From NCBI GenBank assembly GCA_030737835.1, contig CM060847.1, positions 20,123,727-20,187,726 on the forward strand: DNA of 64,000 bases, read 5' to 3'. A program made the translations under genes and the position numbers. Origin of the DNA: Acorus gramineus (lineage: Eukaryota; Streptophyta; Magnoliopsida; Acorales; Acoraceae). A model generated the notes under the pieces. The model was not told the DNA's origin and did not search any database. It saw nothing but the letters and a program-made list of their open reading frames with translations. Position 1 is the stretch's first letter; each line of letters begins with the position of its first letter. Shown here piece after piece: positions 4,505 through 46,612 of the stretch.

Positions 4505-6434
4505 ATGTCTGAACCTACAAATGATGATTTTGGCGAGGGTGAGATCCTTGAGCAGGATGTTGAGTTGTCATCTTCCTCCAAAAATAGGAAGTTGACATCT
4601 GTAATTTGGAATGAATTTGATAAAGTTATCAAACCTAATGGTTTAGAAATTGCTATCTATAAATATTGCAAGGAGTTAACTGGATCAAATGCTAGTGACA
4701 CTTCACATCTGAAGAAACATTTGAATAGATGTAATGATCGAACATATAGAATCATGGGCCAACAGATTTTACAATTAGCAAATAGTGCTGCTGATACATC
4801 CATCAGAGTAAAAACTTTCAAGTTTGACCAAGAAAGAAGTTGTATGGACTTTGCAAAAATGATTGCGAAGCACAATTATCCATTTAACATTGTCGAACAT
4901 GAGTTTTTTTTTATATCTTTTTGAACAATCTTCAGCTATAATTTAATCTTTTTTCCCAAAATTCAGTGAAAGGTGATGTTATTAAATTACACAAGGAAGA
5001 AAATGATAAATTGTATATAAAAAAAAAATTACAAGCGTTCTTCTAGAATCAGCCTTACTACTGATATGTGGACCTCAAATCAGAGCATTGGGTATTGTTG
5101 TTTGATGTCCTATTATATAGATGATGCTTAGCAGTTACATCATAATATTATTGGTTTTCCAACAATTGAATGTCCTCATGATGCTGAAACCCTTCATAGA
5201 ATTGTTCTAGACTTGATTTTGAAGTGGAACAGTGATAAAAAAAAAAAAAAAAAACTATTCTCATTGACTCTTGATAATGCTTCCACTAATGATGCCATGG
5301 TTAGAATGTTGAAGCCTTCGTTGACAAATAAATGGTTGTTACCATTGAATGGAGAGTTGTTTCATGTTCATTGTAGCACACATATTTTGAATTTAATTGT
5401 GCAAGATGGGCTTGAAGAGATAAAAGGGATGATTCAAAAGATTCGTAATAGTGCAAAGTATGTAAAAAGAACAACTGCTTCCAAATTACAAAAGTTTCAA
5501 AATGCAATCAATGAAGTGAAGGGGTTGAGTCAAGATGTCCCAACTAGATGGAACTCCACATTCTTAATGTTGGAATCTGCTTTAGAACTAAAAGAAGCAT
5601 TTTCTTGCTTAGAGGAAATAGATTGATAGTACAAATTTTGCCCTACGAATGAAGAGTGGGAGATGACCCAAATTATCTGTAATTGCTTGAAAGCGCTCTA
5701 TGAAGCAACAAAAAAATTTTATGGATCTAATTTTCCAACATCAAACTTGTTCTTTGCTGATATTTTTGATATTCAATTGCATTTGAATGAATGGGAGGAC
5801 AGTGAGCATGAGTTTCTTCGTTTATTGGCGGCTCCAATGAAAGAAAAATTCAATAAATATTGAGATGAATGCAGCTTAACATTGGCCATTGCAGCGGTTT
5901 TTGATATGAGGTTTAAGCTTACTTTGGTTTCATACTACTATGCACAATTATGTGGTGATGAAGCTCATCAATACATCATGAGGATTCGTTCTGCCCTTAT
6001 TGATCTTTATACAGAGTATGAGACAGTTAATCCTTATACCTTGACTGCATCTTCTAGTGCTTCTTCCTCCACTCCTTGTTCTTCATCTCTTGGTGACAAG
6101 CTTAGTAAATATGAGCAGTGGGTCATGAGATCCAATTCAACCAAATATCATTCCAAAATCAGAGTTGGAACAGTACATGAAGGAGCCAGTATTCCCTATA
6201 ATTGAAGAATTTAACATATTACATTGGTGAAAAATCAATAGTCCTAAACTTCCAACTCTTGGAAGGATGGCTTGAGATATTTTGGCTATACATGTGACCT
6301 CAGTTGCATCAGAAGCAGCTTTAAGTGTTGGAGGGAGGATTCTTATGACTCTTGTTCTTTAAGTCCCGATGTTGAAGAAGCATTGGTCACTTTGCAAGAT
6401 TGGGTGGAATCACATAAAAACAAAAGTAATTAAG
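4505..6434 (+). pseudogene. hAT transposase (zf-BED / RICESLEEPER-like), inactivated
   Basis: The order of domains is that of a plant hAT transposase. A BED-like zinc finger (SHLKKHLNRC) lies near 4700, with one expected cysteine replaced by tyrosine. The catalytic-core region follows with LTLDNASTNDAM, HCSTHILNLIVQDGL and DVPTRWNSTFLMLESA. A hAT C-terminal dimerisation region lies near 6290-6425 (DVEEALVTLQDWVESHKN). The reading frame is broken by a run of shifts and stops at 4920-5210, an A-rich slippage tract near 5238, stops at 5624 and 5861, and shifts after 6200. It cannot encode a working enzyme. Confidence 0.85.
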
Positions 6435-7203
6435 CGTGTCTCATTATTATTTGATTCATACAATTTTGATCTGTCTGTTTGGATGTGAAATCCCTAAATG
6501 GTTATGTTGTAAAGTCATATTGACCTGTAAGTAGTTTTTTGTATTCATGTGTTGAGACCTGGCCCATTTCATTATGTATCAAAACAATAGCTTATTCATG
6601 TAAGAAGCCAAATTCAATCGGATCCGAGTGGTGTCCCGGTTATTAGGTATTGCATCAATTAAATATTGCATCAACAAGGGGTGGCTCAATTTGAGCCCCC
6701 ATAAATTGTAAGTAAGCCCCTCTTGTAAGTTAGCCACTCAACATTTTAATCACTTAATGTACAAGCCTGGAACCCCTCATTTATTAATCTCGTATGCAAA
6801 CAATGAGCCCTTCTTCTCACACCAAAAACCTCTCCCACCTGTTCGTCTCCCCCACAAAACCCTCACATCCTAGTCTTTCGACGCTCGATCGGTTTTGTTC
6901 ATCATGAAGTCGCCATCACCACTTTGTTTCCCCTCACTGTAGGTCGTCTCCCCTCACAAGTGGTGGTTGAAGCAGAAAAAAAGAAGTCTTTAAAGTCAAA
7001 GAAAGTGATCGAGGAGGAAGTTGTGAAAGTAGAGTAGAGTGAGAAGAAGAAAAGGAAGAAAAAAGATAAGGGGGAGTTGATAGGATAATCTGATGTAGAG
7101 AAGAAGGCTGAGAAGGAGAAGAAAAAGGAAAGTAGTGAGGCTGACGGTGCCGTGGTCATTATTCGTCTCTCTCTTTCTTGTTAGGTCATCTCCAGCTAAC
7201 ATT
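6435..7203. other. Downstream flank of the hAT pseudogene; Lys/Glu-rich coding-like remnant
   Basis: No gene is supported. At about 6965-7155 the plus strand reads as a Lys/Glu-rich peptide interrupted by two stops (EKKKSLKSKKVIEEEVVKV, then KKKRKKKDKGELIG). It could be a scrap of a nucleolar-type tail or simply GA-rich DNA. The right end of the hAT element should fall in 6435-6700 but was not identified. Confidence 0.25.
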
Positions 7204-7500
7204 TAAACTTAGGGCACTATTACACTCAGTTTGTTTTATAGACCAAAATACAGTCAATCATATATACCTTGTTAGAAATTCAGTGAAACATATACATCAT
7301 TAGACAATGTATATATCTTGTTAAAAAATTTCTTATACTAATTAAAAATGTGTCCATTCAATTCGAAATGGAGCAATATACACTTTTGATCAAAACATGT
7401 ACCTCATTAGATGATGCTTACTAATTTTTTAAAAATAAAAACATGTGTGATCTGAGTTGTAGACTGTAAAATTAACTGAGTCTAATCTTTTCCTAAAACT
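7204..7500. mobile_element. M1-family MITE-like copy
   Basis: The left end AGGGCACTATTACACTCAG matches the family end (AGCGCTATTACAC). The core holds ATGTACCTCATTAGATGATG and the right end holds GTTGTAGACTGTAAAATT. It has no coding capacity. Confidence 0.45.
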
Positions 7501-7583
7501 TATACCTAAATTTAGAGGTGTAAAACGGGTCATGGCGGGCTGACCTAGCCATTGAGTTTTTTTTTTCTTTGCTATTCAAACTA

Positions 7584-8454
7584 GGGTGCGTCTATCCCCA
7601 CCAAGGGATTCCCTTAACCCACCATCGGAAGAAAAAAAAAACAATGTTTTTCTGTTCCCACCGATCTAGCCAGGTTGACCAAACTTGGTCGGCACTTTAG
7701 GTTTTAGGCACTGAATTGGGTCGCCATTTTAGATTTTAGGCAACTGAACTTGGTCGTCATTTTAGGTTTTGGGCGATCGAAATTGGTCTAACAGTGCTCG
7801 TGATAAAATTTATAATTTTTTTCTTAGAAACCTAATCCCATTACGTGTATCCTCCTTGAATCCTTCATGTAACTCAAAGTTTGAGTTCTAATATAGGGAG
7901 AATCAATCATTATTCTTAAATGTAGAATATAGGACATTTTTTTACATAAGTGAGAGACAAATTTTCAAAAGCCAAATATAAAATGTGTTTCGATCAACTG
8001 GTAGGATTTTTTTATTATTTTCAAACAAAGAATCCGCTTAACCACGAATTCAAATGAAGCTTAAAAATGATATATATTTGTCTAATAAGATATTTTTCTA
8101 TAAAAAAATTGAATTAATTGAAAGTATACCTATTTACATTTTTTCAATCCATTAGCTGCTATTTGGATAAAAGAATAAATGTAGATATGATGATAAACCC
8201 AAAAATTTATTTGTTTACAAAGAATAGGTAGATAGAGTTCTGGACCCTGTTCGACCAATTTTGGTCGCTTAAAACCTGAAATGGTGATTAAGTTCGGTCG
8301 CCCAAAAACTGAAATGGCGACTAAGTCCGGTCGTCCAAAACCTGAAATGGTGATCAAGTTTGGTCAACCTGAATTGGTGGGAACAGCCAAACATCGTTTT
8401 TTTTTTTTTTCAATGGTGGGTTAAGGGAAACCCTTGGTGGGGATAGATGCGCCC
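7584..8454. mobile_element. Non-autonomous Mutator-like element with long TIRs
   Basis: The element starts GGGTGCGTCTATCCCCACCA and ends in the inverted counterpart (GGGCGCATC read from the right). The inverted arms extend more than 200 bp on each side. Each arm includes two to three units of a roughly 33-bp repeat containing TTGGTCGCCATTTTAGGTTT. The flanks are TTCAAACTA (7575-7583) and TTTAAACTA (8455-8463), a 9-bp target duplication with one mismatch. This length is characteristic of Mutator-superfamily transposition. The roughly 430-bp interior has no coding capacity. Confidence 0.75.
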
Positions 8455-8624
8455 TTTAAACTAACTACCAGATTTTGAAATTTAAAATAAAAAAGTAGAA
8501 GTTTTTTTTTAACTTATTTTCAATTTTAAAAGATTCTCAACAATCATATTTTTAACTCATATTTTTATGGTTTTACTTTTCACGGTTTCATTTTCAATGG
8601 TCCTTTTTAAAAAATCTAGTTGTT

Positions 8625-9600
8625 ATGAAAAATGAGCAACTCAATAGCAGAAGACATCTGAGTTTATATGGTGGCTCCATCCAAGGCCACAAAGTTAATA
8701 TCGTGGTCTTGTTGAAGGCATCAAAAGTTTCTTATCATGACTATTTTGCTAAAACTCCAGTATATCCTCTCAATCTATTTTGGAGGAGCTTCCGCATGAA
8801 TAATTCTCGTTTTCTTCGTATTCAAATGCGGTGGAAATCTATTATCCATATTTTGTTCAAATCTTTGATCGGTATATCTTCTCTTCAGAAGATAACATCT
8901 ATAATGAGGATTCTCTCTTATAGAGTGACAACAGATTGTGTGGATGATTACGTGAGGATTGACAAAAGCACCGCAATTGAAAGTGCAAAAAAAAATTTCA
9001 AGGCGATTGCTGGATTTTTTTTTCAAAATGCATACATGCTTGAGATCACCAAACATCCATTGACATTGCTAGATTATTAGATGTTGGTAAAAATAGTGGG
9101 TTTTCAGGGATACTGCGTGCATTAGAAGTGAAAGGATTGCACAACAGCATAGAAAGGTATGTATTCCGATGACATCCATGAACCCACCATGGAAGGTGTG
9201 TCTTCATATGATTTTTGGATTGACATGTTTTTGGGATAGTTGAGATCCCACTCTTATATATTTATTGATCTTGTTGAAAAGTGTGCTACTGCAATCAATT
9301 ATGTGGTCAACAACAATTACTATGCAATGGGATACTATCTCGCTAATAGTATATACCCACAATGGTTACATTGTTAAAATAATTACTTCTCCACAAGGAA
9401 ATAAGTAAAAATATCTTGCAGCAAGAGTCGACAAAAAAGGTGTAGAGCGAACATTTGGAATACTCCAAACATGTTTTGCAATTTTGTATGGACTTGCATG
9501 TTTTTGGAAACATGAAATGCTAAAGATATAATGACAACATGCATAATATTGAATAACATGATCATCGAGGATGATCATAAGCAAATCCCTGTTGCATTTG
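8625..9600 (+). pseudogene. PIF/Harbinger transposase (HARBI1/ALP1-like DDE_Tnp_4), inactivated
   Basis: The first 151 codons (8625-9077) match the N-terminal half of plant HARBI1-like nucleases, with FAKTPVYPLNLFWRSFRMN, ISSLQKITSIMRILSYRV and DCVDDYVRIDKSTAIES. After a stop the homology continues in broken pieces: VNYVVNNNYYAMGYYLANS near 9300, then a remnant of the terminal NNMIIEDD motif near 9551. The segment expected to hold the first catalytic aspartates (about 9100-9290) is mostly lost. No terminal repeats were identified. Confidence 0.8.
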
Positions 9601-10148
9601 AAGATATGTTTTTCCAAATATTTTCATTTTCTAGCTTCTCATTCATTTACATTTCCCTTTATTCATCTTATGCAATATTATTGCAAGAGGCAAACTCATA
9701 CTTTCATTTTCACCATCTTTGCTCTTTCATTTATTTAGATGAATATTTTCAGCCTTCCTACCTAATGGTCTCTCCAAATCGATGAAGTTTTCATGTGAAC
9801 TATTGTCATCTCCTAGGCTTAACAAATATAGAGTAGAAGGAGAACTGATTCGAGTAACGGTTTTACATTTTTTTTCCTTCTTTTTCCTGACCATTCTCCA
9901 TTCTTTTTGGCTAGTATCTCAACTCATTTCAACAATGTTTAATTTGAAATGATTTTTTGTGTAGTGTTTGATACAAAAGTTTTGCACGAGCGCTCTAAAA
10001 TTTGAAAAAATAATACTAGTTATCAAGAAATAATAATAATTATTATAAATGAATAAATAGTATTGCTAATTAAAATTTCTTGTCTATTTCATTTACACCG
10101 CTTTGATTCATCGATCAATTCAATATGAGCAAAACAACCCATAAAATG
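9601..10148. other. AT-rich spacer, no feature recognised
   Basis: I see no coding, RNA or transposon signature in this stretch. Confidence 0.5.
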
Positions 10149-10876
10149 TAAGGAAAATACCCAACTTCTAAGTATTGAAATGCCTAAATCAACCATTTTA
10201 AAAAATTATACATAAAAATGGTCTTATTTCAGAATTTTAGAAAATACAATAACTTAATTGCCCCTATGTTATTTACTATTTAAATATCATCAAATATATT
10301 TAATTGTTTAACACCCCAATTAATTTTTTTAATAATAATAATAAAATATTCTTTTATTTATGCATAAAGTTTATTATTATTTTTGTATATCTAAATACAC
10401 TATTAAGATTAAATCGTAAAAAATTGAAAATTTTCAAAACTTTCTAAAGTCTTTGAGGCACTTATATATGTTTAATAATATATTAAAAAATCATTATGCA
10501 AGACATTTATAAAATTTAAATAACAAAAAAGTGGAAAAAAAAATTTAAAAGTTAGGAAATATCCAAAAAAATCTTATAAATTTATGAATGACAATTTTGA
10601 CAATTTTAAAATTTTTAATAGCATAGTTAAAAAATTTAATAACATGTAAAATCACTCTCAAATAAAAATCATTTCTTATATTAAGATTAATTTTCAATTA
10701 GATGATGGTTATAAAAAGTTTTGAATATGATAAGAAAGTTTAAAAATTGCATAAGGGTATGTTAGTCTTTTTAATTTCTAAAATAATGAAATGATACCTT
10801 TTTTTGTATAATTTTAAAAAGTGACTGATTTGAGTATTTCAAACTTTTAAAAGATTTTTTTTTGTATTTTCCCTAA
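10149..10876. mobile_element. AT-rich TIR element (MITE-like), about 730 bp
   Basis: The left edge TAAGGAAAATACCC and the right edge (reverse strand TTTAGGGAAAATACA) begin inverted arms of roughly 120 bp. Both arms contain AAATCAxxxA...TTAAAAxATTATACA. The interior is AT-rich and noncoding. A possible 8-bp target duplication (AAAATGTA / AAAATTTA) is imperfect. Confidence 0.5.
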
Positions 10877-12006
10877 AATTTATTTATGACGAGTTGAATC
10901 ATTGACCAACAATGCATTAGAGAATTTTGATTACAATGATATGTAATGTTCTTGTATTTGTGGAAGTACTACCCCACTCTTAACCAATATGCCTTGTGCT
11001 TTTTCTCATTCTTTTCACTTCATGCCGGTGCATTAAGATTGCCTTCTTTTAAGGTGAAATTGTTGGATTGTTGTGATATTTTGGTAGTAAATCCCACTTC
11101 ACTAGAGATTTGAGATGGTTGGCCCTCTTATCTTAAGACTCCATATTTGATATCCTCAAGGTTTGATCTTCATAATGAAGATTAGTGTAACAGACAACTC
11201 CATAAACATCCATTTGTGATAAATAAATAAAAAAATGGATGGGAAAAAGGAATTCATAAAATAAAGATTGAGAAAAAAATTCTAAATGAATGTCAAGATA
11301 CAAATTTTAACTGACTCTATAAGAATATGACTAAATCAACTTGATTAAAATTTTGACAAACAATGACTTGGCATTAAAATAAAATAGAACAGACACATAC
11401 CATTATTCTTGACTACTCTACCTCATTACATGGATTCTGTGCATAAATTAAAGTAAAACCAATCAAGTTTTTTCACCAACCTCACCTCCAATCTATGATT
11501 CCATCCCCACTTTCCAAAGGGCACCGATATTTCCACCCACATGGTTATTCACTTCACCCCACCGATATTCCCACCCACATAGTTATTCACCCACCCCTCC
11601 CAACATTATTCTATAAATAAATTACAACCACAATACAATGTGTGAGATCAAACGCATTCAAACAAAGGGAATATATTAAACACCAACCCAAAATCTAGGG
11701 TAGTTTTGTTAAAAAATAAAAACCTAGGGCTTCTAAGAACATGAATGATTCGTGAGATCAAATACATTCTAATATAGGAAACTTAAGCTACAAATACAAT
11801 CAAATAAATGCAAGAAATTAAATAGAATTTAACAAATCAAATACATTAAAAGGAATGGAATGAAGATTTACCCCATCCTTGTGGGGGACTATGGAGACCT
11901 CCACATGGGAGACATCGACAGCAACTGGGAGACACCGACGACAACGGACGTTGGGGGTCATCGGACCGGACCGGAGGTTGGAGAAGAAAAGAAGAAGAAG
12001 AGAGGA

Positions 12007-12048
<42 letters not shown>

Positions 12049-12387
12049 GCTCAAAAACGAAAGGGGTGGGTTCTCAAGGTGACATGCCATCCTTTTATAG
12101 TGGGGGTGGGTTTGCAGGTTTTAAAAAACTAAAGGGATGTGTCAGATAATGGGGTGAGGTGAATAGCTTAAAGGGTGAAAATAACGATGCCCCGTTCCCA
12201 AAAGAACCCAAACCCTATAAGAAGAAACCTTCTCATTGTCTCCTTCCCCAATAATCACAACTCATCTTTTTCATTTTTTTAATCAACACAAAAGACAAAT
12301 TAAGGGAAAGAGAAAAACAATGACCTTCACAAGTACCTCAAAAAAATAATAATTTGGCAACACATATTTATGAGATGAGCGGACGCA
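10877..12387. other. Intergenic region with a GA microsatellite
   Basis: No gene is supported. There is a GA tract at 12012-12041 and a short direct duplication near 11520-11595 (CACCGATATTxCCACCCACAT twice). Words such as GTGAGATCAAAxxCATTC recur at 11642 and 11754. Open frames over 11818-12132 are produced by the microsatellite. Confidence 0.4.
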
Positions 12388-14504
12388 TGTGAAGGGCAAT
12401 TTCATAATTTCACGGAATCCATAGGTATAACAGAAGGTGAAGTTAGTGGCTAATATTCATTTACAGAGGGTCACTTGAGGCTTCCGTACGTGATGAAGGA
12501 AAAGAAAAATGTGGAAGCTTTGTGAAGCAATTTTCACATAGCACTAGGTAAAGATTCTCATTCTTTTATCGTTGTTCTTCGTTTAGGATTGTTCTATTTC
12601 AATTTTAAATCAAAATTGTGATTTGGGGTTGAAATATGAATATGTTTTTGAGATTGAATAAATATGAATTAGAGAGTTATTTTTTTTTAACAATTTAGGG
12701 TTTGTAGTGGGGATGTCCTGTTTGTTATGGAGATTTGAGAATTGCTTGAATAATGGGGTATGGTTTGGTATCTGATTGAGATTATATTTTTATCAGTGGG
12801 TTTCCCTCTGCGTCATTTAGAAGCTAGATTAGGGTGAGTTCAGCTTGAGATTGTGAATTTCTAGGTAAGTTACCCGACATTTGCTTGTTCCATTCCATTC
12901 CACGCTTTATTGTTATTATTACTGTTTGGTTGCTATTTGGAAATTCAGATTAATTATGTTGTTATGCTTCTTGAGATATGTCTATTGTGAAGACGTGCTT
13001 CATTATTGTTGTGATCATGTAATTATTCGAGATTCTGAAATATTCATATCATTGTCCTATTTATTTCTTGAAAATGTTCATTATTGGAACTTGTTCTTTA
13101 TTAATCACTATTATTATTATTTTGAGTTTTCAGGTTATTCCTTATTTTATTATCGCTTGATATTTTTTATCATTGATTCTCGTGAATCTATAATTGATTT
13201 GTGAGCATTGTGAGCCTTCTTTGATCTTATTCTCTACATCCTAGTTATTCAATATTTTCCTATGATCAACATGGTTGTACAATCTGACCATGGAGCCTTG
13301 TGGTGTGTTTGGTATTGTCACTTTTTAATTACCTTTTGTGTGCTTGGAGATGGATGACCATATACTATACATCATTGGTTGAGGATTACCTCCCCAGCGG
13401 GCATGAGTACATACGGGGCCTGTAGGGGGACTTGGAGATATACCTTACCATGCCTGGACATTTGGAGGGCTAGGTATCGATCCTGTGGTGGACGTGCGAA
13501 GGGCCACAAACGAGGTATATATATTGTGGACATCTCAGATGATGGGGATCGAGATGGGGGTCAAGATGGTCATCCTTGCGCTCTGGATGTTAAGGGGCCA
13601 GAGTTGCGATTCCTTATCATTCTTAGCATTGCGGACGTTTCGAGGGCCACAACGTGTGTTATTGATATTATTGGCATTATTCAAATTGGTGTGATTAAAT
13701 ATTAGGTGTGATTTTAGAGTATCTACTCTCAGTCCATGGGTGATGCACCTTGATGATATTTATTGACATTATTGATTGTGACGTGTTAGTCTGAGCCATT
13801 TGTTTCCTATTTCGTTGGTGTTTACATATCAGCGATGTTATTGTTCTCCGCTATTCAAATTGGTGTGATTAAATATTAGGTGTGATTTTAGAGTATATAC
13901 TCTCAGTCCATGGGTGATGCATCTTGATGATATTTATTGACATTATTGATTGTGACGTGTTAGTCTGAGCCATTTGTTTCCTATTTCGTTGGTGTTTACA
14001 TATCAGCGATGTTATTGTTCTCCGCTGATGATCATATAGTGATTTTATTTGCTATTCATGCTTCGGCTTGGTGTTTATTGAGATTATTGAGCTTAATTGA
14101 TTATGTTTTACTTTGTGGTTCCGTATGCGTAGAATGTTTGGGTTACTTACCGAGTACATTTCGCTCATTCCATTCTCTTTCTTCCTATTTTTGTAGAATA
14201 GAGGCTGGGGTTTCTAGGCTTTGGATTTGGTCTTCTTTTGGTGTCATGTCCAGCTGCTGATCGGTATATATTTTGATGTTGTGGATATATACATGATCAT
14301 TTAGGTAGAGGTGGTCTAGCAAACCATGTTTGTGTTATAGTGCTTTAGATGTATGGATAACTATATATGAGATGTGTTAGATGCTCTATTGACTGCTTAA
14401 ACTTTTCTGGGTGTTGTGATATTGTGATTATAGATATCTAGTCGATTATATTTTATCAGGCGGGTGACGTGCACTCGCCAGGGTTTTGGGCGCGGGCCAT
14501 CACA
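12388..14504 (-). mobile_element. Probable solo LTR of a Ty3/Gypsy (Tekay/Del-like) retrotransposon
   Basis: Read on the minus strand the block starts TGTGATGGCCCGCGCCCAAA and ends GGCAATTGCCCTTCACA-like at 12388, giving TG...CA ends. Internally it carries the short GC-rich modules (GCGGGCATGAGTAC, GGACATTTGGAGGGCTAGGT, GGACGTGCGAAGGGCCAC) that I associate with long LTRs of this lineage. No gag-pol lies on either side, so a solo LTR is likely. A 5-bp target duplication was not found, so the ends are tentative. It contains a 174-bp tandem duplication. Confidence 0.5.
13679..14026. repeat. 174-bp tandem duplication
   Basis: Copy 1 is 13679-13852 and copy 2 is 13853-14026. They differ at about two positions (ATCTACTC versus ATATACTC, CACCTT versus CATCTT), so the duplication is recent relative to the surrounding decay. 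Confidence 0.9.
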
Positions 14505-14888: not shown

Positions 14889-15165
14889 TAAAGAGCGCTA
14901 TTACATTCGACCCATTTTATAGCGTCTTTTATAGTCCCATATATCTTGGCCACATGCGCTCACTATAACGAGATACATATCTTATTTAAATTTTTTTACA
15001 CATTCTATGAATGAGTCCATACAATTTATAGAGTTTATACTTCATTATTTATAAAAATATATACCTCATTATATGAGATATGCCATTTAAAAAAAATAAA
15101 ACAAAAGTGTGCGGACTTCATTTGCGGTTGAAAATGGGGTTGTGTCTAACATTTTCTTAAAACTA
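14889..15165. mobile_element. M1-family MITE-like copy
   Basis: The left end AAGAGCGCTATTACATTCG and the right end GGGGTTGTGTCTAACATTTT are the two family termini. The core has TATACCTCATTATATGAGAT. The reverse orientation of its right end matches the GATATACACAACCCC start of the 31347 copy. Confidence 0.55.
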
Positions 15166-17074
15166 AATCAGTTTGCACATCACCATTTGCATATCTCACA
15201 TTCTATTGTTGCTGCTGCATCAACTTTGCATACTCACCTTATATACATCGCACCTCCACTTTGCACACTCCTGCATATCTCTCCCTACCTCTATACATGC
15301 TATTTTTATTCATGATTTAAACTCACCACTTGACGCAAGATAAGATGATGAGGAGCGGGCAAACTTGACCATCGTTATCCCTCTCCCACCACATCCGCTT
15401 CCCTCTCCTTCTTACTCGTGGCTCAGGTTGTTTGGGTTGAACATTGTCGTTGCTTGAGAAAAGATTTGAACATTGTTATAGCTCGAGAGAAGATTTGAAT
15501 ATTGTCACGACTCAGGTTTGTTGAGGTAACATATATTAGATGGTACTAAAAAACGAACTGACGATATTGTGAAGATCATCGAAAGAGTTGCCGGAGAGCA
15601 GGAAATGATCGCCTCAGATGGAGAAGAAGGACATGATTTTGACACCGATGTGATGCTTGTTAAAAATGCTCTAGTCAGAAATTTTACTCTTCTTGGAAAA
15701 GAAAGAAAGATTAATTAAAAAAAAAAATCAGAGAATGAATCTCATGCTTCAATTTTGGGGTATAGATATCTATTTATAGATGAATTTTGGCATGTCAAGT
15801 ACTTTGATAACGTGATCATATTTTCATTTGTCTTGTTACGGTGAAGTCACATGTACAAAATCTGGAGATTAATTAAACACATGTCAAAAGATGGGGTCCA
15901 CCATACTTTAGGACTTCTTCACCCAAGTAATTTTTGTCCACCATCCAGGAATTGTAAAACAATAGATTTAATTTTGGATTGATATCTAGTATATGTTTTT
16001 TTCATTGGTTTTTGTTGTCACATAATATGTTTTATTTTTTTGTGTTATAATTGGTATGAAAATTGTTTGAAAAAAATAAAAAATATATTGTGTGATTTCT
16101 AAATGAAAAAATTGTCTAGATTTAGGATTATGTTCAAATATTTATAGATGATGCATGCAAACAAATTTATGGTGGTTATTTTCTACTTAAAATGATAAAT
16201 CTTGTTTTAGTGTTTAGTTCTAGCTACAAATGAGGATGAAAAACTTGTTTCAATAGTTGGTCGACACAGTCGAGCTATATACCACATCTATTGTAAGGAT
16301 TATTTTTCCTCTTGTTGTTTTTTTAAATAATGTTAGACAGTAATGCGTAGATATTCAATTGTTGTGAGAAAATGATTGTGTGATTTTCTAATTCAACAAA
16401 TATATTTCCACAACTTATGCAATCACTAGGATGTGAAAGAAAGAAGAGAGGTTAATTCTTTTCTTTTGCAACTTCTAATATCTATTGATGTAATGTTTAG
16501 TGAGAAAAGATATCTATGATTTGTTATGAAAGTCTACAAAGAAGTAGCGAGACATGCTCAGGATATCAAAGTATTAAAAGCTATCTTTTAATTGAATAAG
16601 TTCCAATAATGCAATATTTTGTTATTGTAATTCCTAAAAGAAATTAAGATCTTGATTTCAATACTGCAAAAAATCTTTTATATCCTTCTTCTCCACAAAA
16701 CTAAATGCAATTCATTAACAATAATCATACAAGTAAATTCTCAATGACATACATCTTGATCAAATTTTTAACTTGCAACATGACCCTGAATAATATATAT
16801 TTTTTTTGTTTGGCCTATGCTTCTATATAAATGTTTATTTTGCTTTTTCAAATGTTTGTTAAATGTTTTTGTTCTCATATAATATTTACATTTTGCATGA
16901 GAAGCTTTAGGTTTGTATCGCATTGTGTAATCCGACCCTCAACCCGAACTCATTTTGAATTGGGTTTGAGTTTTACGTTTGAATTGAATAGACATTTAAT
17001 TACTAAAATCAGAAACCCTCTATAAAATAAGTCAAGTTATGATCATAATCTATAGAAAAATGATGCATCCAACC
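15166..17074. other. Intergenic AT-rich region, one unidentified open stretch
   Basis: No gene is supported. An ATG-less open stretch of about 60 codons at 15541-15717 (+) reads GTKKRTDDIVKIIERVAGEQ and so on to a stop, with normal-looking composition. It may be a pseudogene scrap, but I do not recognise it. Confidence 0.25.
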
Positions 17075-31637: not shown

Positions 31638-32326
31638 ATTATATTGCAGGGACATTGATATTGAGTGTTGTTGGTGCGTGCTGTTTAGACAACTATATTA
31701 AGTGCACCTGATCAGGGTGTTAAAGAAGGCAATTAACATGCATGCTGAACTTGAATTCCAACAATTAGCACATATATTGCATGCTAAGTTTTGTTGGTGC
31801 ATGTTGTTTGTACAACTAAATATTAAGTGCACCTGATCAGGGTGTTATAAAAGTCAATAAACATGTATGCTGAACCGAACAATGCAACAACTCCTCGAAG
31901 GATCAAGATAGTTGAATTCTCCCTCTCACTAGAAAACCAGCTCAGACAAAAAGGCCCAAATCTTTCAAAGTTGCTTAACAGACTGAACAACCAGAACTGA
32001 TAAGATTATGATAATTTCAATGGAGTGTCTGAATTATATCAACTCAAGTCAGAAACTTCACTACAGCCAGCCAATCACTTTCAAGAGAGACTCGCTTCCA
32101 GCCACAGAACTAGATTATGTGGCCAGCCAAATAGCTTCTAGGCATTCAGCTAGATATCGAGAGGTGGGGAGACCACATAAACAAAGTCCAGAGAGCATGA
32201 GCGACTGTGTGCTATCCAAATTGTCTGTCTGTCCAATAACACTAAAGAATGGTTAATTTGGGTTTGTTTTTATTTTATTTTTTCTGTGTGAGACAAATTC
32301 CGACTGAGTGTTTTAACACCTTCCCC

Positions 32327-32364
<38 letters not shown>

Positions 32365-32940
32365 ACGCAGCAAGGCACAATAGAGAACACACAAAATAGA
32401 CCCCCACATGACTTGAACACTCACTTGCCTCCAAAGAAAAGAAGAATATGGAATATGGTCACATTTTATTCCTCTCTCAGTTCAAGTGCATCAATTGTGA
32501 AGGTGTAATGCATAGATGAAGCTGACCCCATTCAGCCGGGTGATGTGATCCAGAGAATCTGTGGGCCAATGAATATGTGTCACATAAGATGATACAAAAT
32601 TATTTAAGATGAATATACATGGATTACTTTCATGTAATTTTAATTAAAATAAGAGAAATGTTTTAAAAAAATAATTTTGTGTCATGTACTTGTCACTCGC
32701 TTATTGGCCTACGTAAGAATTATCTGTACATGTATACGAGGATATGAACTCACCAACCAGGCATCCATCACACGTACAACAGTATAAGCGTTGTGATGAT
32801 ACTAACTCCGTAGTCCAACTTTATCAATACTGAATTAATAAAGGAAGTGTTTTCAATTGATTATACTGGAATGATTGATGATATGATCACATGTAGTGTA
32901 GTGGATGGATCAGCTCTTCCAAGAAGGTAAAGGAAAGCAC
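31638..32940 (+). repeat. Segmental repeat, copy A (upstream DNA of a former thaumatin-like gene)
   Basis: Parts of this segment recur at 42028-42437, 47611-47725 plus 63051-63830, and (inverted) 43444-43870. Landmarks are GCACCTGATCAGGGTGTTA, GACTCGCTTCCAGCC and CACATGACTTGAAC. It holds an internal duplication (31668-31750 and 31793-31876) and a CT tract (32332-32362). Positions 32590-32935 match, inverted, the DNA beyond the truncated thaumatin-like promoter copy, so the segment probably once lay upstream of such a gene. Confidence 0.75.
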
Positions 32941-39232: not shown

Positions 39233-39894
39233 TGTAGATACCCCAATTTTGACCATCCAAAGAGAAGAAAATTACTTCAAGTAAAATTTAGAAATGATCA
39301 CATTTGGAATATAAAAGAAAACACATTTAGAAAAGAAACCAGAAGAAGAAACCCTGGCTCCAAACACTTAGAAAATTCAAGGGGGCAGAACCTGGACGGC
39401 TAGTTTAAAGTAGCCGCCCCTCCTCCGGCTAGTTTAAAGTAGCCGCCCCTCCTCGGGCAGCTAGATTGAATTAGCCGCCCCCCAACCGCTTCCCATACAT
39501 GGGACATAAAGTTAGCATTTATAATGTTGATGAATGTGGTGGTTTCTCATATTTAGCCACCCCTTCTCTGACGGCTTACTCCTAGTAGCCGCCCCAAGCC
39601 ACTGCTTGTCAGATATTGGACATTTGACAGGTCATCATAGGAGTGGCTTCTTACAAGTAGCCGCCCCCCTTTGGGCGGCTAATCACAACATGCCACCCCT
39701 CACCTGGACATTGTTAGAAACACAAAGATTTAATGAGGGTCAAATAAAAAACCCTTGTATCCAATTTGATCTATTGTCCAGTGGATACTCTTTTGCCCAT
39801 TTTTTTACTATAAATAGGGGGTATCCAACACTTCTTCAACTCACAACAAATCATAAAATCACTTGCAATCACATACCCACCAATTCCATACCCA

Positions 39895-39929
<35 letters not shown>

Positions 39930-40462
39930 AATTTTGAGAGAAGGAAAATCATTCCCACTAAATTCCACTCTCCCAAAACCCTCTCCAAAACCCTGTTTAA
40001 ACCTGGTTTAACCTCAGCTAAAATCCAAATCAAATCCTACCCAAGTTCTGCCCAAATAGAGCCAGGTACCAGGCGGCTAATCCACAGTAGCCGTCCCCCT
40101 TCAGGCGGCTAAACTCTACTAGCCGACCCCCACTTCCACCCTGCCTTTTAAAAACTCCCTTTGTCAAGTCCTGGAAGTAGAAAATGATTTCCCGTTTTCA
40201 CCTCTATGTACGGCTAGCCATGTCTTAGAGCAGAGAATCCACAATCTACCTCCGCGAAGGCGATCAACAACAACACCAACTTTTCCTGCTTTTGAATAAA
40301 GTAGGTGGCGATCGCAACAACCCCTGAATCCTCCTGAGTAGCTGTCGGGTGTCTCAGCAAGGAACCGACCACACACACACCCCATTTTCCGAGTGGCGAT
40401 CTGACCAAAAGCCCGCAAGGCGGATCAGAACCATCGAAACTCGCTGAAAATCAATACCGACA
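39233..40462 (+). mobile_element. Solo LTR of a Ty3/Gypsy element with exact 5-bp target duplication
   Basis: The 1230-bp unit starts TGTAGATACCCCAATTTTGA and ends AATACCGACA. It is flanked by CAATG at 39228-39232 and 40463-40467. Removing it and one CAATG restores the Copia reading frame across the site (LSN joined to GLFKMDVV). A TATA-like CTATAAATAGGGG lies at 39810 and a GA microsatellite at 39898-39925. It holds about eight short palindromic modules of the form GGCGGCTA-spacer-TAGCCGCCCC, located at 39398-39480, 39560-39600, 39640-39700 and 40070-40130. Confidence 0.92.
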
Positions 40463-40826
40463 CAATGGTTTATTCAAAATGGATGTAGTAACTGTAATGC
40501 CTATGATTATTAATAAAGTAAATGCTTTTGCTTGTTTTCTTGAGTCATGTGATATGTGGCATGATAGATTAGGACATGTTAATTTTGGTACTTTGTGTAG
40601 ATTAATTAACATGGAATTGTTGTCTAGTTTAATATTGATTCAAATCATAAATGTGAAATATGTGTGGGATCAAAATTAGCAAAAACCCTTTTCATATCTA
40701 TAGCAAGAAGTTTTGAACTTCTAGAATTGATTCATAGTGATGTACGTGATTTGCAATTTGTGCAATCTAGAGGTGGTAAAAAGTATTTCATTACTTTCAT
40801 TAATAATTGCACTAAATGTAACAATA
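40463..40826 (+). pseudogene. Copia pre-integrase/integrase start
   Basis: The peptides WHDRLGHVNFGTLCRLINM, NHKCEICVGSKLAKT and LELIHSDVRDLQFVQSRGGK are the pre-integrase HHCC region and the beginning of the integrase core of a Copia polyprotein. The frame shifts near 40625. Homology stops abruptly at about 40826 after [10 protein letters not shown]. Confidence 0.8.
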
Positions 40827-40831
40827 GCCAA

Positions 40832-41800
40832 AAAGAATTCTAATATACACAAATTTAGCCACAAGAGAATATGTGTCTATATAATCAACACATTCAATTT
40901 GGGTAAAACCTTTAGTTACCAATCTAGATTTAAATTTGTCTATTGAACCGTCATTTAAGTTTCTTTTTAAATATCCATTCAAAACCTATTTCTTTTCTAT
41001 CTATCAGTAAAGATGTAAGCTCTCAAACTTGATTTTTATCAATAGATTCAAGCTCTTCGTTCATTGCTTTGATTCATTATTCATTATAAGAAAATGAATC
41101 ATCTATTCTTCCATTACTTCTGAAACTAATGCATTATAATCTTTCATACTGAGAAGTGTGGATGCCTTTATAGCCATAGTGTTTTGGTGGTTGTATAATT
41201 TTTTAAATGTTATTAGGAGAATTATCTTTTTTGTTTTTCAATTTCAAATTATTCTATAAGATTCTTAGGATTCCTAAATTCAATATCATCTTCTAAAAAT
41301 CTTACATGCATCTCTACTTTCAATGGCACTTACACTACCACTAGAATGATGAAAGATACATATTCTTTCGAATCTGAATGTCCAATAAAAGTACATTTTA
41401 TCCTTTTACTATCCAATTTTTTGCTTTGTTGATTAGGAATTTGAGCTGAAGAGCCTTGAAATTTTAATTTACTTATATAAGGTTTTCTACAATTCCAAAT
41501 TTCATGGGGAGTTACATTTTTTGTTTTGTAGAAACTCTATCTAAAATGTATATTGTAGTAGAAAATGCTTCTCCTCACTATATATTTCCTAAGTTTGAAT
41601 GAGCAAATATAGATCTAATATAATCATATCTAATAGTCATATTTATTCTTTCAGCTACTCCATTATTTTGTTGAGGTACAAAAATTATTCTTGATTGATA
41701 AATAATGCCATTTTCTTTACAACAATTTTTGAAAAGTTCATATGTATATTCATTATTATCTTTGTCACTTTCTAAATTTTTATATGTCCTCCTAATTTAT
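40832..41800 (-). pseudogene. Inverted Copia integrase and reverse transcriptase segment
   Basis: Read on the minus strand from 41800, broken frames give GGHIKI, then YTYELFKNCCKENGIIYQSR and VPQQNNGVAERIN (integrase core). Near 40990-40860 they give [19 protein letters not shown] and [13 protein letters not shown] (reverse transcriptase fingers/palm). The order on the minus strand is collinear with a Copia pol. The segment begins close to where the plus-strand integrase stops, so it is an inversion within one element rather than an unrelated insertion. Confidence 0.7.
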
Positions 41801-41810
41801 TTTGAGCTAA

Positions 41811-42027
41811 GGCTCCGTTTGGAAGTACGTCTTGGGCCGCTGCATCCGTTGAAGCAGGGGTGTAATGCGGAAGCGGTTTTTCTGAGCGTTGGTGAAGACG
41901 TCGAAAAATACACACTAACCGCGCAAAACAGGATCAAGCGCAGAAGCTGCCATATCTGTTTGTTTGAGCGTCTGGGTCCACCTGTGTCCGTCGACACAAA
42001 CTTGGGGCAAACGCCCTACCAAATGGA
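41811..42027. mobile_element. Short TIR element (hAT-like MITE)
   Basis: The left end GGCTCCGTTTGGAAGTACG and the right end (reverse strand GTTCCATTTGGTAGGGC) are typical inverted ends of plant hAT-like MITEs. The interior of about 190 bp is noncoding. A target duplication was not resolved. Confidence 0.55.
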
Positions 42028-42437
42028 ACATAAATTTTTAAATGTCTTATTAGAAAACCAGCCCAGACAAAAAGACCCGAATCTTTCAAAGTTGCTTAAC
42101 AGACTGAACGACCAGTGTCTGTGTTATATCAACTCAAGTCAGAAAGCTTCACCACAGCCAGCAAATCACTTTAAAAAGGGACTCGCTTCCAGCCCCAGGA
42201 CGAGATAATGTGGCCAGCCAAATAGTTTATAGGCTCAGCAATATATGGAGAGGTGAGTGACTCTACGTGCCTTCCAAATGCCACTAGGGTGGTTTTGTTT
42301 TTATTTTATTTTTTTCTGTGTCAGACAAACTCGGGCTGAAAAAGAAAAAAAAAAGCACTAAAAAAAAAAAATATTATCTCATTTTTATTCATCTCCCTGA
42401 GTTTGAGTGCATCAATCATGGTAGTGCACTGCATAGA
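42028..42437 (+). repeat. Segmental repeat, copy B (truncated)
   Basis: It matches copy A at 31919-32520 and copy D at 63206-63800 (AACCAGCCCAGACAAAAAG, TCGCTTCCAGCCCCAGGA, GAGTTTGAGTGCATCAATCA). It is cut off at GCATAGATGA where a Gypsy LTR begins at 42438. Confidence 0.8.
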
Positions 42438-43073
42438 TGATGCAGCGTGCGATCACGCTCTTCAATCGATGATGCGAATTCGCAAGCTCCAGCGGCTATG
42501 TTGATTCTTCAGAAAAATGTCAGGGACGTTGGACTTCAATGACTTGTTGATTTATGATGAAATACCAGGTTATTGGGAACTCTATATAGATGTTAATCCT
42601 CCTAGGATAACAAATATAATAGAATAAATAAAGAAACTTTGATAATTCATAAACTGCATAATGAAATAGTTTACATACCTATTTATAGAAGAGAATCCAT
42701 AACAAATTGGATCTCAACTGATTATTCTAATATAAAATAACAGCTACATTCTTATTTAATCCTAACTAATATTCAAATTTGAATTCAAATCATTATTTGA
42801 AATTCAAATCTAAATATAGTAAAATCCTAATAAATGCATAAAATCCTAACAAACTAAAAACTGTCAAAAATAGTAAAAATAACTTTCAATTGTCGATTTG
42901 ACCCCCTAGACGATCTCAGAACGCTCCAAAAATTGGCTTAATGTAATAGCAACTACTCCTGTAGGGCTCGTCGATACAAACGCATAGACATATTATAATA
43001 GCGATTCTGATCTACGGTTTAAAAGTTATGGCAGTTTGAAGTCACTGTGCTCCCGATCGATCAAGATGTACAT
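42438..43073 (-). mobile_element. Gypsy LTR fragment, left piece
   Basis: The plus-strand left edge is TGATGCAGCGTGCGATCAC, closely similar in type to the LTR edge TGATGTAGCG at 59531 and 60964. The AT-rich body (TATTTATAGAAGAGAATCC, repeated AAATTCAAAT words) also matches those LTRs. The last 109 bp (42963-43071) are repeated at 43898-44006. The piece stops where the inverted thaumatin-like fragment begins. Confidence 0.65.
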
Positions 43074-43186
43074 CCACACTGTGTAGGAGCATTTGTTGAC
43101 TATGTTGAAGGTGGCGGCGTTGGTGAGGGGGAGGAGGAGGGGGAGGAGGAGGAGGAGTGAAGAGAGATGGAAGGCTTGTGTGGCCA
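43074..43186 (-). pseudogene. Truncated inverted copy of the thaumatin-like gene (signal peptide only)
   Basis: The minus strand has an ATG at 43186 and 37 codons encoding [15 protein letters not shown], two extra leucine/proline codons, then [14 protein letters not shown], ending abruptly at 43074. It differs from the intact gene by a small in-frame insertion in the signal peptide and one substitution (Val to Ile). Its promoter copy, including the TATTTATA box, is retained upstream (43187-43443). It cannot make a folded thaumatin-like protein. Confidence 0.92.
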
Positions 43187-43443
43187 TTTTTGGGAAATGG
43201 TGTTGGAATGAGGTTTGTGTTATGTGTGATGTTGGAATTGGGATTGGTTTGTATGTATTTATAGATGGGGCAGAACCTTCTAAATTTATTGAATTCTAGT
43301 TTTCAGTGTTTGTCACTGAAAAAAAGGAAACTTTAATGAGTGATCCCTCATGAGATAGGAAGAAATTTATAAACAACTGGTCATGAATATGAAATAATGG
43401 GGGTGGGGAATTATGGACATGGAAGTCTAGGCATTGGTTGACT

Positions 43444-43870
43444 ATTATAACAAGAAGGAATTTTAAACACAAGTAAACCCTAAAAAGATCTTGAGTTTAT
43501 CTAGGCATCCGTTTTCAGTGATTAATTCTAGTTCACATTTATTTTGATCCTAAATACAGTATAATGTTTGTCTTTATTTTCTTGACCTTTACTTTCTTGA
43601 CCTTCTTGGCCGAGCTAATCCATCCACTACACTTCATGACATCATTATCATGATGCATACCCATCTAATTATGTGTGATGGATGTCTAGTTGGCGAGATC
43701 ATATCTTTAGATATGTGTGCAGAGAATTGCAGTGTAGATTAATAAGTGAGCTGACACAAAACTATTTTTTAGAGAAAATGCTTTTATTTAATTAAAATTA
43801 CATGAAAATAAATCTTGTGTGATATCTTAACATCTATGTGACGTGTATTCGTGTACTCGTTGGAATTTCT
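43444..43870 (-). repeat. Inverted segmental-repeat piece adjoining the truncated thaumatin-like copy
   Basis: Read on the minus strand it matches 32590-32935 of copy A. Shared words are TTTTCATGTAATTTTAATTA, a form of CATCCATCACAC, and GTGTAGTGGATGGAT. It therefore represents the original DNA upstream of this promoter. Confidence 0.65.
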
Positions 43871-43894
43871 CTATTGTCTACTGATGCAGACGTC

Positions 43895-44192
43895 ATAGCA
43901 GGGCTCGTCGATACAAACGCGTGGACGTATTATAATAGCGATTCTGATCTGCGATCTAAAAGTTATGGCAGTTTGAAGTCATAGTGCTCCGGATCGATCA
44001 AGATGTCTTCTCTTTTTTCTGGCTCATCTGATCTCGACCATCCATGTAATGTGTGGCTATGATGTCTGCATCATCCTCCTCAGGTTGGAGAGAATTCGCC
44101 CTCGAATTCAGATCGTCATCACTGGAACTGTCACCTGTATATGGAACGAGGTGCTTGACATTGAAGACATCAGCTGTGCGAAAGTCAACCAA
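43895..44192 (-). mobile_element. Gypsy LTR edge plus polyprotein C-terminal tail
   Basis: On the minus strand, 44192-43998 encodes TADVFNVKHLVPYTG and NSLQPEEDDAD, the characteristic end of a Ty3/Gypsy integrase. A purine-rich CTGAGGAGGA and a candidate LTR start TGATGCAGACATCATAG (44073 leftwards) follow. The 109-bp block 43898-44006 duplicates 42963-43071. The coding tail stops at about 44183, exactly where thaumatin-like promoter DNA begins. Confidence 0.75.
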
Positions 44193-44439
44193 TGCCTAGA
44201 CTTCCATGTCCATAATTCCCCACCCCCCATTATTTCATATTCATGACCAATTGTTTATAAATTTCTTCCTATCTCATGAGGGATCACTCATTAAAGTTTC
44301 CTTTTTTTCAGTGACAAACACTGAAAACTAGAATTCAATAAATTTAGAAGGTTCTGCCCCATCTATAAATACATACAAACCAATCCCAATTCCAACATCA
44401 CACATAACACAAACCTCATTCCAACACCATTTCCCAAAA
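44183..44439 (+). promoter_or_regulatory. Promoter of the thaumatin-like gene
   Basis: A TATA box (TATAAATA) at 44364-44371 lies 69 bp before the ATG. The distal edge contains GTCAACC (W-box core TTGAC on the minus strand, 44185-44191). Only about 257 bp of native upstream sequence remains before Gypsy coding sequence. Confidence 0.75.
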
Positions 44440-45108
44440 ATGGCCACACAAGCCTTCCATCTCTCTTCACTCCTCCTCCTCCTCCTCCCCCTCACCAACG
44501 CCGCCACCTTCAACGTAGTCAACAAATGCTCCTACACAGTGTGGGCCGCAGCCGTCCCAGGTGGCGGCCGACAGCTCAACCCGGGCCAGTCCTGGTCCAT
44601 CAACGTCCCCGCCGGCACCAAAAGCGCGCGCGTGTGGGCCCGCACGGGCTGCTCCTTCGATGGCTCGGGCCACGGCCACTGCCAGACTGGTGACTGCTTC
44701 GGAGTCCTTGCCTGCACCGCCTATGGTTCCCCGCCGAACACGCTCGCTGAGTACTCACTGAACCAGTTCAACAACCTCGACTTCTACGACATCTCCCTCG
44801 TCGACGGTTTCAACGTGCCCATGGACTTCAGCCCAACGAACAGGAATGGGTGTCACGACATACGGTGTACCGCGGACGTTAACGGGCAGTGCCCAGGCGT
44901 GCTACGCGCGCCTGGGGGCTGCAACAACCTGTGCACGGTTTTCAAGACGGATCAGTACTGCTGCAACTCGGGAAGCTGCGGTCCGACGGACTACTCGAGG
45001 TACTTCAAGGGGCTGTGCCCGGACGCTTATAGCTATCCCAAGGACGACGCCACCAGCACCTTCACTTGCCCCGGTGGGTCTAACTATCAGGTTATCTTCT
45101 GCCCTTAG
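44440..45108 (+). CDS. Thaumatin-like protein, PR-5/osmotin type
   Basis: The single exon encodes 222 residues. A hydrophobic signal peptide (1-21) precedes mature ATFNVVNKC, so the protein should enter the secretory pathway. All 16 conserved cysteines are present (C30 to C221, eight disulfides). The thaumatin signature [16 protein letters not shown] spans residues 77-92. The acidic-cleft set of PR-5 proteins appears intact (R68, E104, D117, D122, D195). There is no long C-terminal extension of the vacuolar type. Such proteins are pathogen- and stress-induced and many bind beta-1,3-glucan or inhibit fungi; activity here is inferred from family only. The gene is markedly GC-rich in third codon positions compared with the MEE22 homologue. 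It is the intact member of a rearranged locus. Confidence 0.96.
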
Positions 45109-45240
45109 AGGGAGCGAGAGAGATTTCTACTGATAATAATGTAATAATGAATAAGATTGTGATCCTTGCTATGGTGGTCACATGAATAAATGGGGACTTG
45201 TATGGTTCCAATACAAACTTCTGTGATGTGTGTTGAGATT
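45109..45240 (+). terminator. 3' UTR with polyadenylation signal
   Basis: AATAAA lies at 45185-45190, about 80 bp after the stop codon, with TGTGATGTGTGTTGAG (GU-rich) shortly downstream. Confidence 0.6.
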
Positions 45241-45748
45241 ATTACGTACGCCACTGCTCGTTGGTGAAATCAAATTGCATGTGGAATATCTTCATTCCAC
45301 TTATTCGTGGAATATCTTTGAATTCTTTTGCTTTGTATTTTGTTGGGAGGGTGGGTTGTTGTCCACATCTTATGAGAGCAAACTTTTCTCCATTTTCTTT
45401 ATGTCATATCTAAATATCTATGATCATCATTTCTCTTTGCTTTGAGGCAAGATTGAGACTTGTAATCTACTTCTGAGTTATATAGTCTACCATTTTCTCA
45501 AAAAAGAAGAAGCATGGACCGCTATCTCGTTAGAACAGCTGTCATGTGGAATATCTTCATTCTACTTATTCGTGATCTTTGAACAAGACCGATATTAATG
45601 GCCTAAGTTTGGTGAGTTTTGGTTCAAGGTCAAGGTCAAGCAGAGGATTAAAGTCAGGGTTGAAATTTTCCTCTGTATGGGGTGGCAGACCTTCATCTAG
45701 AGCGGGTGCAACTCTACCACCTTCCTCTGTATCTTTTCAAACTATGGC
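45241..45748. repeat. Downstream flank with a short direct repeat
   Basis: CATGTGGAATATCTTCATTC with following CACTTATTCGTG-type sequence occurs at 45279 and 45544. Between them is T-rich DNA without a gene. Another short homology links 45957-46035 with 35165-35245 (TTTTATCTTTGTAAATTT). Confidence 0.6.
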
Positions 45749-45751
45749 TAA

Positions 45752-45950
45752 GGGGGCGTTTCGATATGGGTTTGGAAAGATTATGCATTTGCAGGAATCG
45801 GATTTCCCCAAAACTCATTTTCAAACAGAGAAAAAGCTGTGGCAAAAAGCTGCAGACATATTTTTACAAATAAGTGCATGTGAAGATATTCAATTTTAAA
45901 CTCAGATTTTGATGAAAAGCTAATTCCTGAACCCACATTTAAACACACCC
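45752..45950. mobile_element. Tourist-like MITE, 199 bp
   Basis: The ends GGGGGCGTTTCGATATGGG and (reverse strand) GGGTGTGTTTAAATGTGGG are inverted. TAA flanks both sides (45749-45751 and 45951-45953), the 3-bp target typical of PIF/Harbinger-derived MITEs. It is noncoding. Confidence 0.75.
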
Positions 45951-46612
45951 TAAGAATAGGATATGGTAATACTCATTAATATAGCTTACTTTTATCTTTG
46001 TAAATTTTATAAGTTAGTTTTGTTATAAATTTACTCACTTATTCTTCGCAAACAAATAGTTTTTTTGGGTTATTCACTCTTATTCCACCCTATTCCCCAC
46101 CTATTGCGCTATCCAAACTTGGGCTTAAATTTTGTTCGGGCATTAGGTTTACTTCTCAGCTTAATTTAGGTAGCCTTTAAAAAAAATTTAAAAATTGACT
46201 TTTCACTTAAAAATGGTTATTCAAATAGTTTTTCAGATAGGAAATTTTTGTTAGATTTCTAGAAAAATAAAGACTATTTCTTATAACTAGAATTATTTCT
46301 CTTAAAATGTTTTTTAAATTACTTTTTTAAATAAATATATTTTTGTTATAAGGAAATTATTTTTTTATAACTAAAATATGTTTTTCACTTTTAGGACGCT
46401 TATCTATCAAACTGATCAGTTTTCAAATATGGGACACAATACTGGATTTTCCTTCCCTTGTAAGAAAAGGAATTCAAAGCTTCCATTGCCATTGCTACAT
46501 GTCATTTTTTTTTTTTTGCTAGAATGGCCCCACAAGGGGCAAAAACAATACAACAGGGGCATAAGGCCCATAGCCCAGCAATACTGGGAATACTTCCCAC
46601 CAGGGGTATGCG
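45951..46612. other. AT-rich spacer
   Basis: No gene recognised. The flank around 46520-46612 joins directly to 47495 when the hAT insertion is removed. Confidence 0.4.

Follow-up and report, generated by a model that had tools for sequence, protein, structure and literature searches.

The DNA upstream of a thaumatin-like protein (TLP) gene in Acorus gramineus probably carries the scar of a recent small inversion, preceded by a flip between long terminal repeats (LTRs), which duplicated the start of the gene and left the gene itself beside Gypsy DNA. The rearrangement is of a known kind and a neat example of it, a clear but fairly ordinary genome scar. The stretch of 64,000 nucleotides that was analyzed (the window) is C1:20123727-20187726 of the A. 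gramineus assembly (398.6 Mb, with 32,950,433 bases in C1), and positions given here without a contig name are those of the window.

The gene (44440..45108, forward strand) is an intact thaumatin-like (PR-5) gene with a single open frame of 222 amino acids, as judged from its domain, structural match and cysteine count. PF00314 spans the mature protein (E 1.5e-62, profile 1-209 of 209), the best PDB match is 1z3q, which we take to be a banana TLP, and the mature protein contains 16 cysteines, a feature of the thaumatin-like family. The set of protein homologues, 120 listed of 2,050 found and the window protein among them, includes the A. gramineus entries QJS04_geneDACA023004 and QJS04_geneDACA023001. 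A protein search of the plant's own genome gave 39 matches, eight with loci, one of which is the window gene. Two others are near copies, both at 97%: C2:26455485-26456159 over the whole protein, and C1:19738188-19738829 over residues 9-222. The latter has a frameshift, caused by a 7-bp insertion in the leucine-coding CTC repeat of its signal peptide, which may be genuine damage to that gene or a mistake in its sequence. A 57-bp direct repeat (45253-45309 and 45518-45574, 77% alike) lies in the 3′ flank of the window gene, and a 175-bp tandem duplication, 98.9% identical, is found elsewhere in the window at 13678-14026.

The beginning of the gene is present twice, in two inverted arms at 43074-43443 and 44183-44544 that are 96.8% identical over 371 columns (E 4e-176); the earlier note on this DNA had described such arms, with promoter and first codons, and was right to do so. 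The right arm (44183..44544, forward strand) comprises 257 bp of native upstream DNA and codons 1-35 of the intact gene, while the left arm (43074..43443, reverse strand) is an inverted copy of the promoter, the 5′ UTR and the first 38 codons, the additional codons being explained by a loss of 9 bp from the leucine-rich signal peptide of the gene. The inverted copy has its promoter, 5′ UTR, ATG and signal peptide undamaged and in frame, and its chimeric open frame (43026..43187, reverse strand) joins 38 TLP codons, encoding the signal peptide and the start of the mature part, to 15 codons from filler and LTR before reaching a stop. The arms differ from each other by two substitutions in 361 compared bases, a 1-bp indel and a 9-bp indel, as against 5/361 and 5/370 differences from the C1 copy and 6/361 and 6/370 from the C2 copy. 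Being mutually closer than either is to these copies, the arms point to a recent event. Taking a substitution rate of 6.5e-9 per site per year, two changes correspond to an age near 0.4 million years, within broad limits of about 0.05-1.5. The title of PMC9300462 suggests that evolution in Acorus could be slower than this.

The native upstream DNA of the gene (43444..43881, reverse strand) now adjoins the inverted copy only. That the inverted copy holds the ancestral upstream DNA, as had been proposed, is confirmed by the C1 and C2 copies, in which the same DNA lies directly upstream of the gene; over 43444-43796 it differs from them at 1 and 5 of 338 positions, respectively. The companion claim, that the intact gene abuts Gypsy DNA after about 257 bp of native sequence, also holds, with a blunt join at 44182/44183. 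Part of what was separated from the gene is conserved in more distant TLP paralogues: the block at 43428..43509 (reverse strand) has counterparts kept at 79-82% in five such loci (L004-L008), a comparison that leaves aside C116:116129, another full-length close match that came without a locus. Just 16 bp of this block (44183-44198) are retained at the intact gene, the remainder lying only beside the inverted start. What remains of native DNA upstream of the intact gene is 257 bp, and most of the paralogue-conserved block is gone. A W-box-like AGTCAA opens the retained 16 bp, exactly at the junction, and the upstream piece carries two more W-box-like sites, all of them consensus matches only; one of the two lies within a 15-bp duplication that the C1 and C2 copies lack.

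The Gypsy DNA on both sides could be delimited with the help of a better preserved relative on C4. This element has a 714-bp LTR (TGATGCAG...CTGCATCA), its LTR pair is 96% identical over 716 columns, and the 5-bp target duplication CTATC lies on either side. On the basis of this LTR, the window contains a left LTR copy (42438..43069, reverse strand) cut at 43069 by the rearrangement, a second, internally rearranged LTR piece (43882..44073, reverse strand) whose orientation is opposite in both ancestral-type copies, and a polyprotein C-terminal tail (44074..44182, reverse strand) that is bluntly joined to the right arm. The labels of LTR and polyprotein tail had therefore been assigned correctly, with their boundary at 44073/44074 rather than at 44006/44007; likewise, the LTR block said to flank the inverted piece is real, and it measures 107 bp, not 109 (42963-43069 and 43900-44006, 91.6%). 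At least 45 genome-wide matches to 42272-43110 were found, 40 of 629 candidates having been scored. C4 DNA running from inside the LTR into the element matches 44000-44182 at 95%, and a 2-kb inner piece of the relative encodes RNase H, integrase zinc-binding and SH3_Tf2-1 domains. RNase H precedes integrase in its polyprotein, as read in three pieces, with rve itself scoring under its Pfam cut-off. Direct LTRs of the TG..CA type and a target duplication, features of Ty3/Gypsy elements, are present in the C4 relative, and the window holds remnants only.

The direction of change emerges from comparison with the C1 and C2 copies, each taken with 8-11 kb of flank per side (stretches of about 20 kb). 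In each of these copies the two window arms align to a single place, and there is accordingly one gene start, preceded directly by DNA of the 43444-43881 type and, beyond it, by a Gypsy remnant in the order left LTR, polyprotein tail, 133 bp more of polyprotein, and a shortened LTR piece in opposite orientation. In both, this second LTR piece sits between 18-bp inverted ends (identified by eye), suggesting an earlier inversion there. Relative to the C1 copy, window 39426-43069 corresponds to 6321-9945, 43074-44072 to 11251-10254 in reverse, 43900-44182 to 9839-10120, and 44183-46612 to 10875-13350. The two copies are collinear with each other here, except for a 957-bp insertion upstream of the C2 gene (L009 7934-8890) with terminal inverted repeats GGGTTAAAGACATCTAAG... 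and the 9-bp target duplication TTTAATTAA. The C2 copy (C2:26452143-26458550) is moreover rotated relative to the C1 copies, in that C1-copy 15152-15547 precedes 9149-14199 with a TT overlap at the joint, an order to be expected if a circular DNA intermediate or a tandem duplicate had been involved.

An older state still is provided by copy A (31908..32936, forward strand), a diverged copy of the upstream region that serves as an empty-site witness. Its alignment spans the Gypsy insertion point without any Gypsy, the joint being at GCATAGA, and is loose just to the right of the joint and firmer further in; the bases flanking the Gypsy DNA, ATAGA and GTAGA, are alike at four of five positions. 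The match between copy A and the DNA outside the left arm, as described earlier, does exist and is weak (43593-43830 against 32604-32935, two blocks at 71% and 79%, opposite strand). Because the C1 and C2 copies have the other order with one gene start, and copy A has no Gypsy, the window order is the derived one, in agreement with the proposal that the change occurred in the window lineage. Read from these sequences, the history would run from intact upstream DNA, through Gypsy insertion and decay, to a rearrangement in the window lineage only.

Both witnesses to the uninverted state come from this one assembly; they may be paralogues, or the C1 copy may be an allele. Divergence between the window and the C1 copy is patchy, at 1/338 (0.3%) in the upstream piece, 5/361 in the gene arm and 8/564 from codon 36 to the stop (1.4% in arms and coding part), 32/1,498 (2.1%) in the 3′ flank and 27/690 (3.9%) at 42272-42962, and conversion between copies may therefore have contributed. 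Whether selection on the window protein relaxed after the loss of promoter DNA was also considered, and the private codon changes in codons 36-222, counted by eye, are too few to decide this: two silent and two replacing in the window gene, three silent and none replacing in the C1 copy, two silent and three replacing in the C2 copy. F87 and L164 of the window protein occur in 0/119 and 0/117 other homologues among the matches listed with a residue at that position, and are not decisive, since private amino-acid changes are no fewer in the C2 copy.

The junctions can be placed to the base. On the left, Gypsy LTR extends to 43069 and the arm begins at 43074 (...GATCAAGATGT, ACAT, CCACACTG), separated by the 4-nt filler ACAT (43070..43073, no strand assigned), which is the reverse complement of the adjacent ATGT and forms with it the palindrome GATGTACATC. 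On the right, Gypsy DNA extends to 44182 (...GTGCGAA, then AGTCAACC), with no filler and no base in common with either donor continuation. Both junctions, one blunt and one with filler, are without long homology. Blunt junctions and short fillers that match the flank in reverse are typical of end joining.

A model of the product was built from the C1 copy by joining the left flank, ACAT, the reversed gene start, upstream DNA and second LTR piece, the tail running on from the first LTR, and the gene. Of 2,487 bases aligned between this two-step model and the window, 2,435 match and 52 do not, and there are 55 gap columns, compared with 1,948 matches, 235 mismatches and 481 gap columns for the unrearranged C1 copy; the best C2-based model gives 2,426 matches, 61 mismatches and 51 gap columns. 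A simple inversion of the C1 order without the LTR flip fits worse (2,420 matches, 62 mismatches, 264 gap columns as opposed to 55) and was rejected. The reversed orientation holds for 43444-44073, whereas the tail at 44074-44182 fits only after an LTR-mediated flip, which is needed to account for its direct orientation and was observed at no third locus. Switch points were sampled every 6 bp and only within the region of LTR homology, where three tied for best at C1-copy 9931-9943; the switch is located only roughly, as all scores fell between 4585 and 4615. We also rejected a simple insertion of the gene start into an LTR, since native upstream DNA and part of an LTR travelled with the inverted piece, and the gene is missing that DNA. 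The earlier idea of a break-and-copy event that placed an inverted gene start into a Gypsy LTR is best recast as a small inversion with a duplicated end inside pre-existing Gypsy DNA, in place of a one-way insertion.

The starting point was probably a truncated Ty3/Gypsy element with inverted LTR pieces about 690 bp upstream of the gene ATG, as in the C1 copy. In this model, recombination between the inverted LTR pieces would first have flipped the short stretch between them. Breaks in the LTR, together with strand cuts some 370 nt apart across the promoter and first codons, would then have released the intervening segment, which would have rejoined backwards by end joining, and fill-in of single strands would have left each end of the inverted segment with a gene start. 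Template switching during replication would give an identical product. The remainder of the promoter would drive, if anything, a truncated leftward transcript encoding a 53-residue fragment with the TLP signal peptide. We would expect expression of the gene to be altered or reduced, and the inverted piece to have no evolved function.

An origin of the inverted gene start in assembly, through a chimeric or fold-back PacBio read or a mis-joined haplotig, has to be weighed against this, and we consider it unlikely. The accessible part of PMC10282084, a paper on an A. gramineus assembly, describes PacBio reads averaging 13 kb, very high heterozygosity, 6.07% duplicated BUSCO genes, and genome sizes of 362 Mb by flow cytometry and 409.7 Mb by k-mers, the former to be compared with the 398.6 Mb assembled. 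Furthermore, the scaffold carries a second, related version of the region, collinear with it in inverted orientation: C1:19645459-19789999 and 20130217-20240546 are mutually inverted over more than 100 kb and mostly 94-99.5% alike, with blocks of at least 500 bp from 6491 to 116820 of the 124-kb stretch. Both carry series of TLP genes and fragments, the window gene and its C1 partner are 430 kb apart, and parts of the partner region also match a third stretch, C1:19630000-19640873. A 10-kb sample at C1:19955000, near the expected center, had no match of at least 300 bp to either side. The region at 19.63-19.79 Mb may be the other haplotype on the same scaffold or a large segmental duplication; if the former, the C1 comparison is one between alleles, and the C2 copy still backs the direction of change. 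Against an artefact, the arms carry private changes (two substitutions, the 1-bp and the 9-bp indel), three joins within about 1.2 kb, one with filler, would be needed inside reads of such length, and there is not one N in the 160 kb and 124 kb checked.

Functional readings of the inverted start are less probable again. The inverted transcript had been suggested to pair with the 5′ end of the real mRNA, which it cannot do, having the same sense as that end, because in the inverted copy the promoter was turned round along with the 5′ end. Antisense or hairpin RNA would come only from rightward read-through that starts left of 43074 and continues through 43074-44544. With such read-through the locus might act in silencing or as a young hairpin of the miRNA type, its stem measuring about 365 bp and its small RNAs directed against the TLP 5′ end, which we regard as very unlikely. 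The 1,471-nt stretch does fold into one near-perfect long stem (MFE -860.9 kcal/mol, calculated without a shuffle comparison), and the available text of PMC3237417 presents the proposal that plant miRNA genes originate when part of a gene is duplicated in inverted orientation. Conversely, both window LTR pieces point left and are therefore not expected to supply a rightward promoter, the promoter of the second gene start faces left, away from the gene, and Rfam gave no match at gathering scores in 42000-46000. That the inverted start functions, whether as an alternative promoter or as a chimeric mini-gene whose secreted 53-residue peptide is kept by selection, is extremely improbable: its start is intact and in frame, as described above, yet it is young and single-copy, and the peptide as query returned no candidate homologue with three common 5-residue words. 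It is highly unlikely that one inversion step produced a truncated promoter, a back-to-back promoter for a mini-protein and a 365-bp repeat silencing the TLP family in trans; were this so, a new silencing locus would have been caught near birth, with unrearranged copies still there for comparison.

The inversion that we favor has published counterparts. Inverted duplications at inversion ends are attributed to staggered breaks in PMC7584159, the available part of which also allows for the same duplications from repair alone. As in the case described there, the segment between the arms here, 739 bp long, lies between inverted copies of a sequence that is single when uninverted, with end-joining junctions, and a 2,026-bp microinversion in that paper has such ends too. 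The Acorus case differs in coming from a plant, in duplicating a promoter and start codons at one end only, in the small loss that the model implies at the other end, and in its need for a prior LTR flip. Inversions that break promoters and alter expression are known, for example maize Tu1 / Zmm19 in the accessible text of PMC9300462. The breakpoint is likewise in a promoter beside an otherwise intact gene; unlike in the maize case, any effect on expression at the Acorus locus is a prediction, and its upstream part is kept with a second gene start. Adjacent, divergent inverted copies of a gene piece also recall the miRNA inverted-duplication model of PMC3237417, with the difference that here the intact gene itself is one arm, and any hairpin transcript or small RNA is hypothetical. 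Among the Acorus and thaumatin-like literature retrieved no title concerned this locus, and "thaumatin" has no occurrence in the available text of PMC9300462 and PMC10282084.

The main steps at this locus are readable, because the junctions are known to the base, two copies preserve the unrearranged state and a third the state before the transposon. If the C1 copies are alleles, the same plant allows a direct allele-specific comparison of expression. The locus illustrates how promoter loss and an inverted gene start can come about where inverted LTR remnants lie close to a defence-type gene, and such a product is regarded as raw material for silencing loci.
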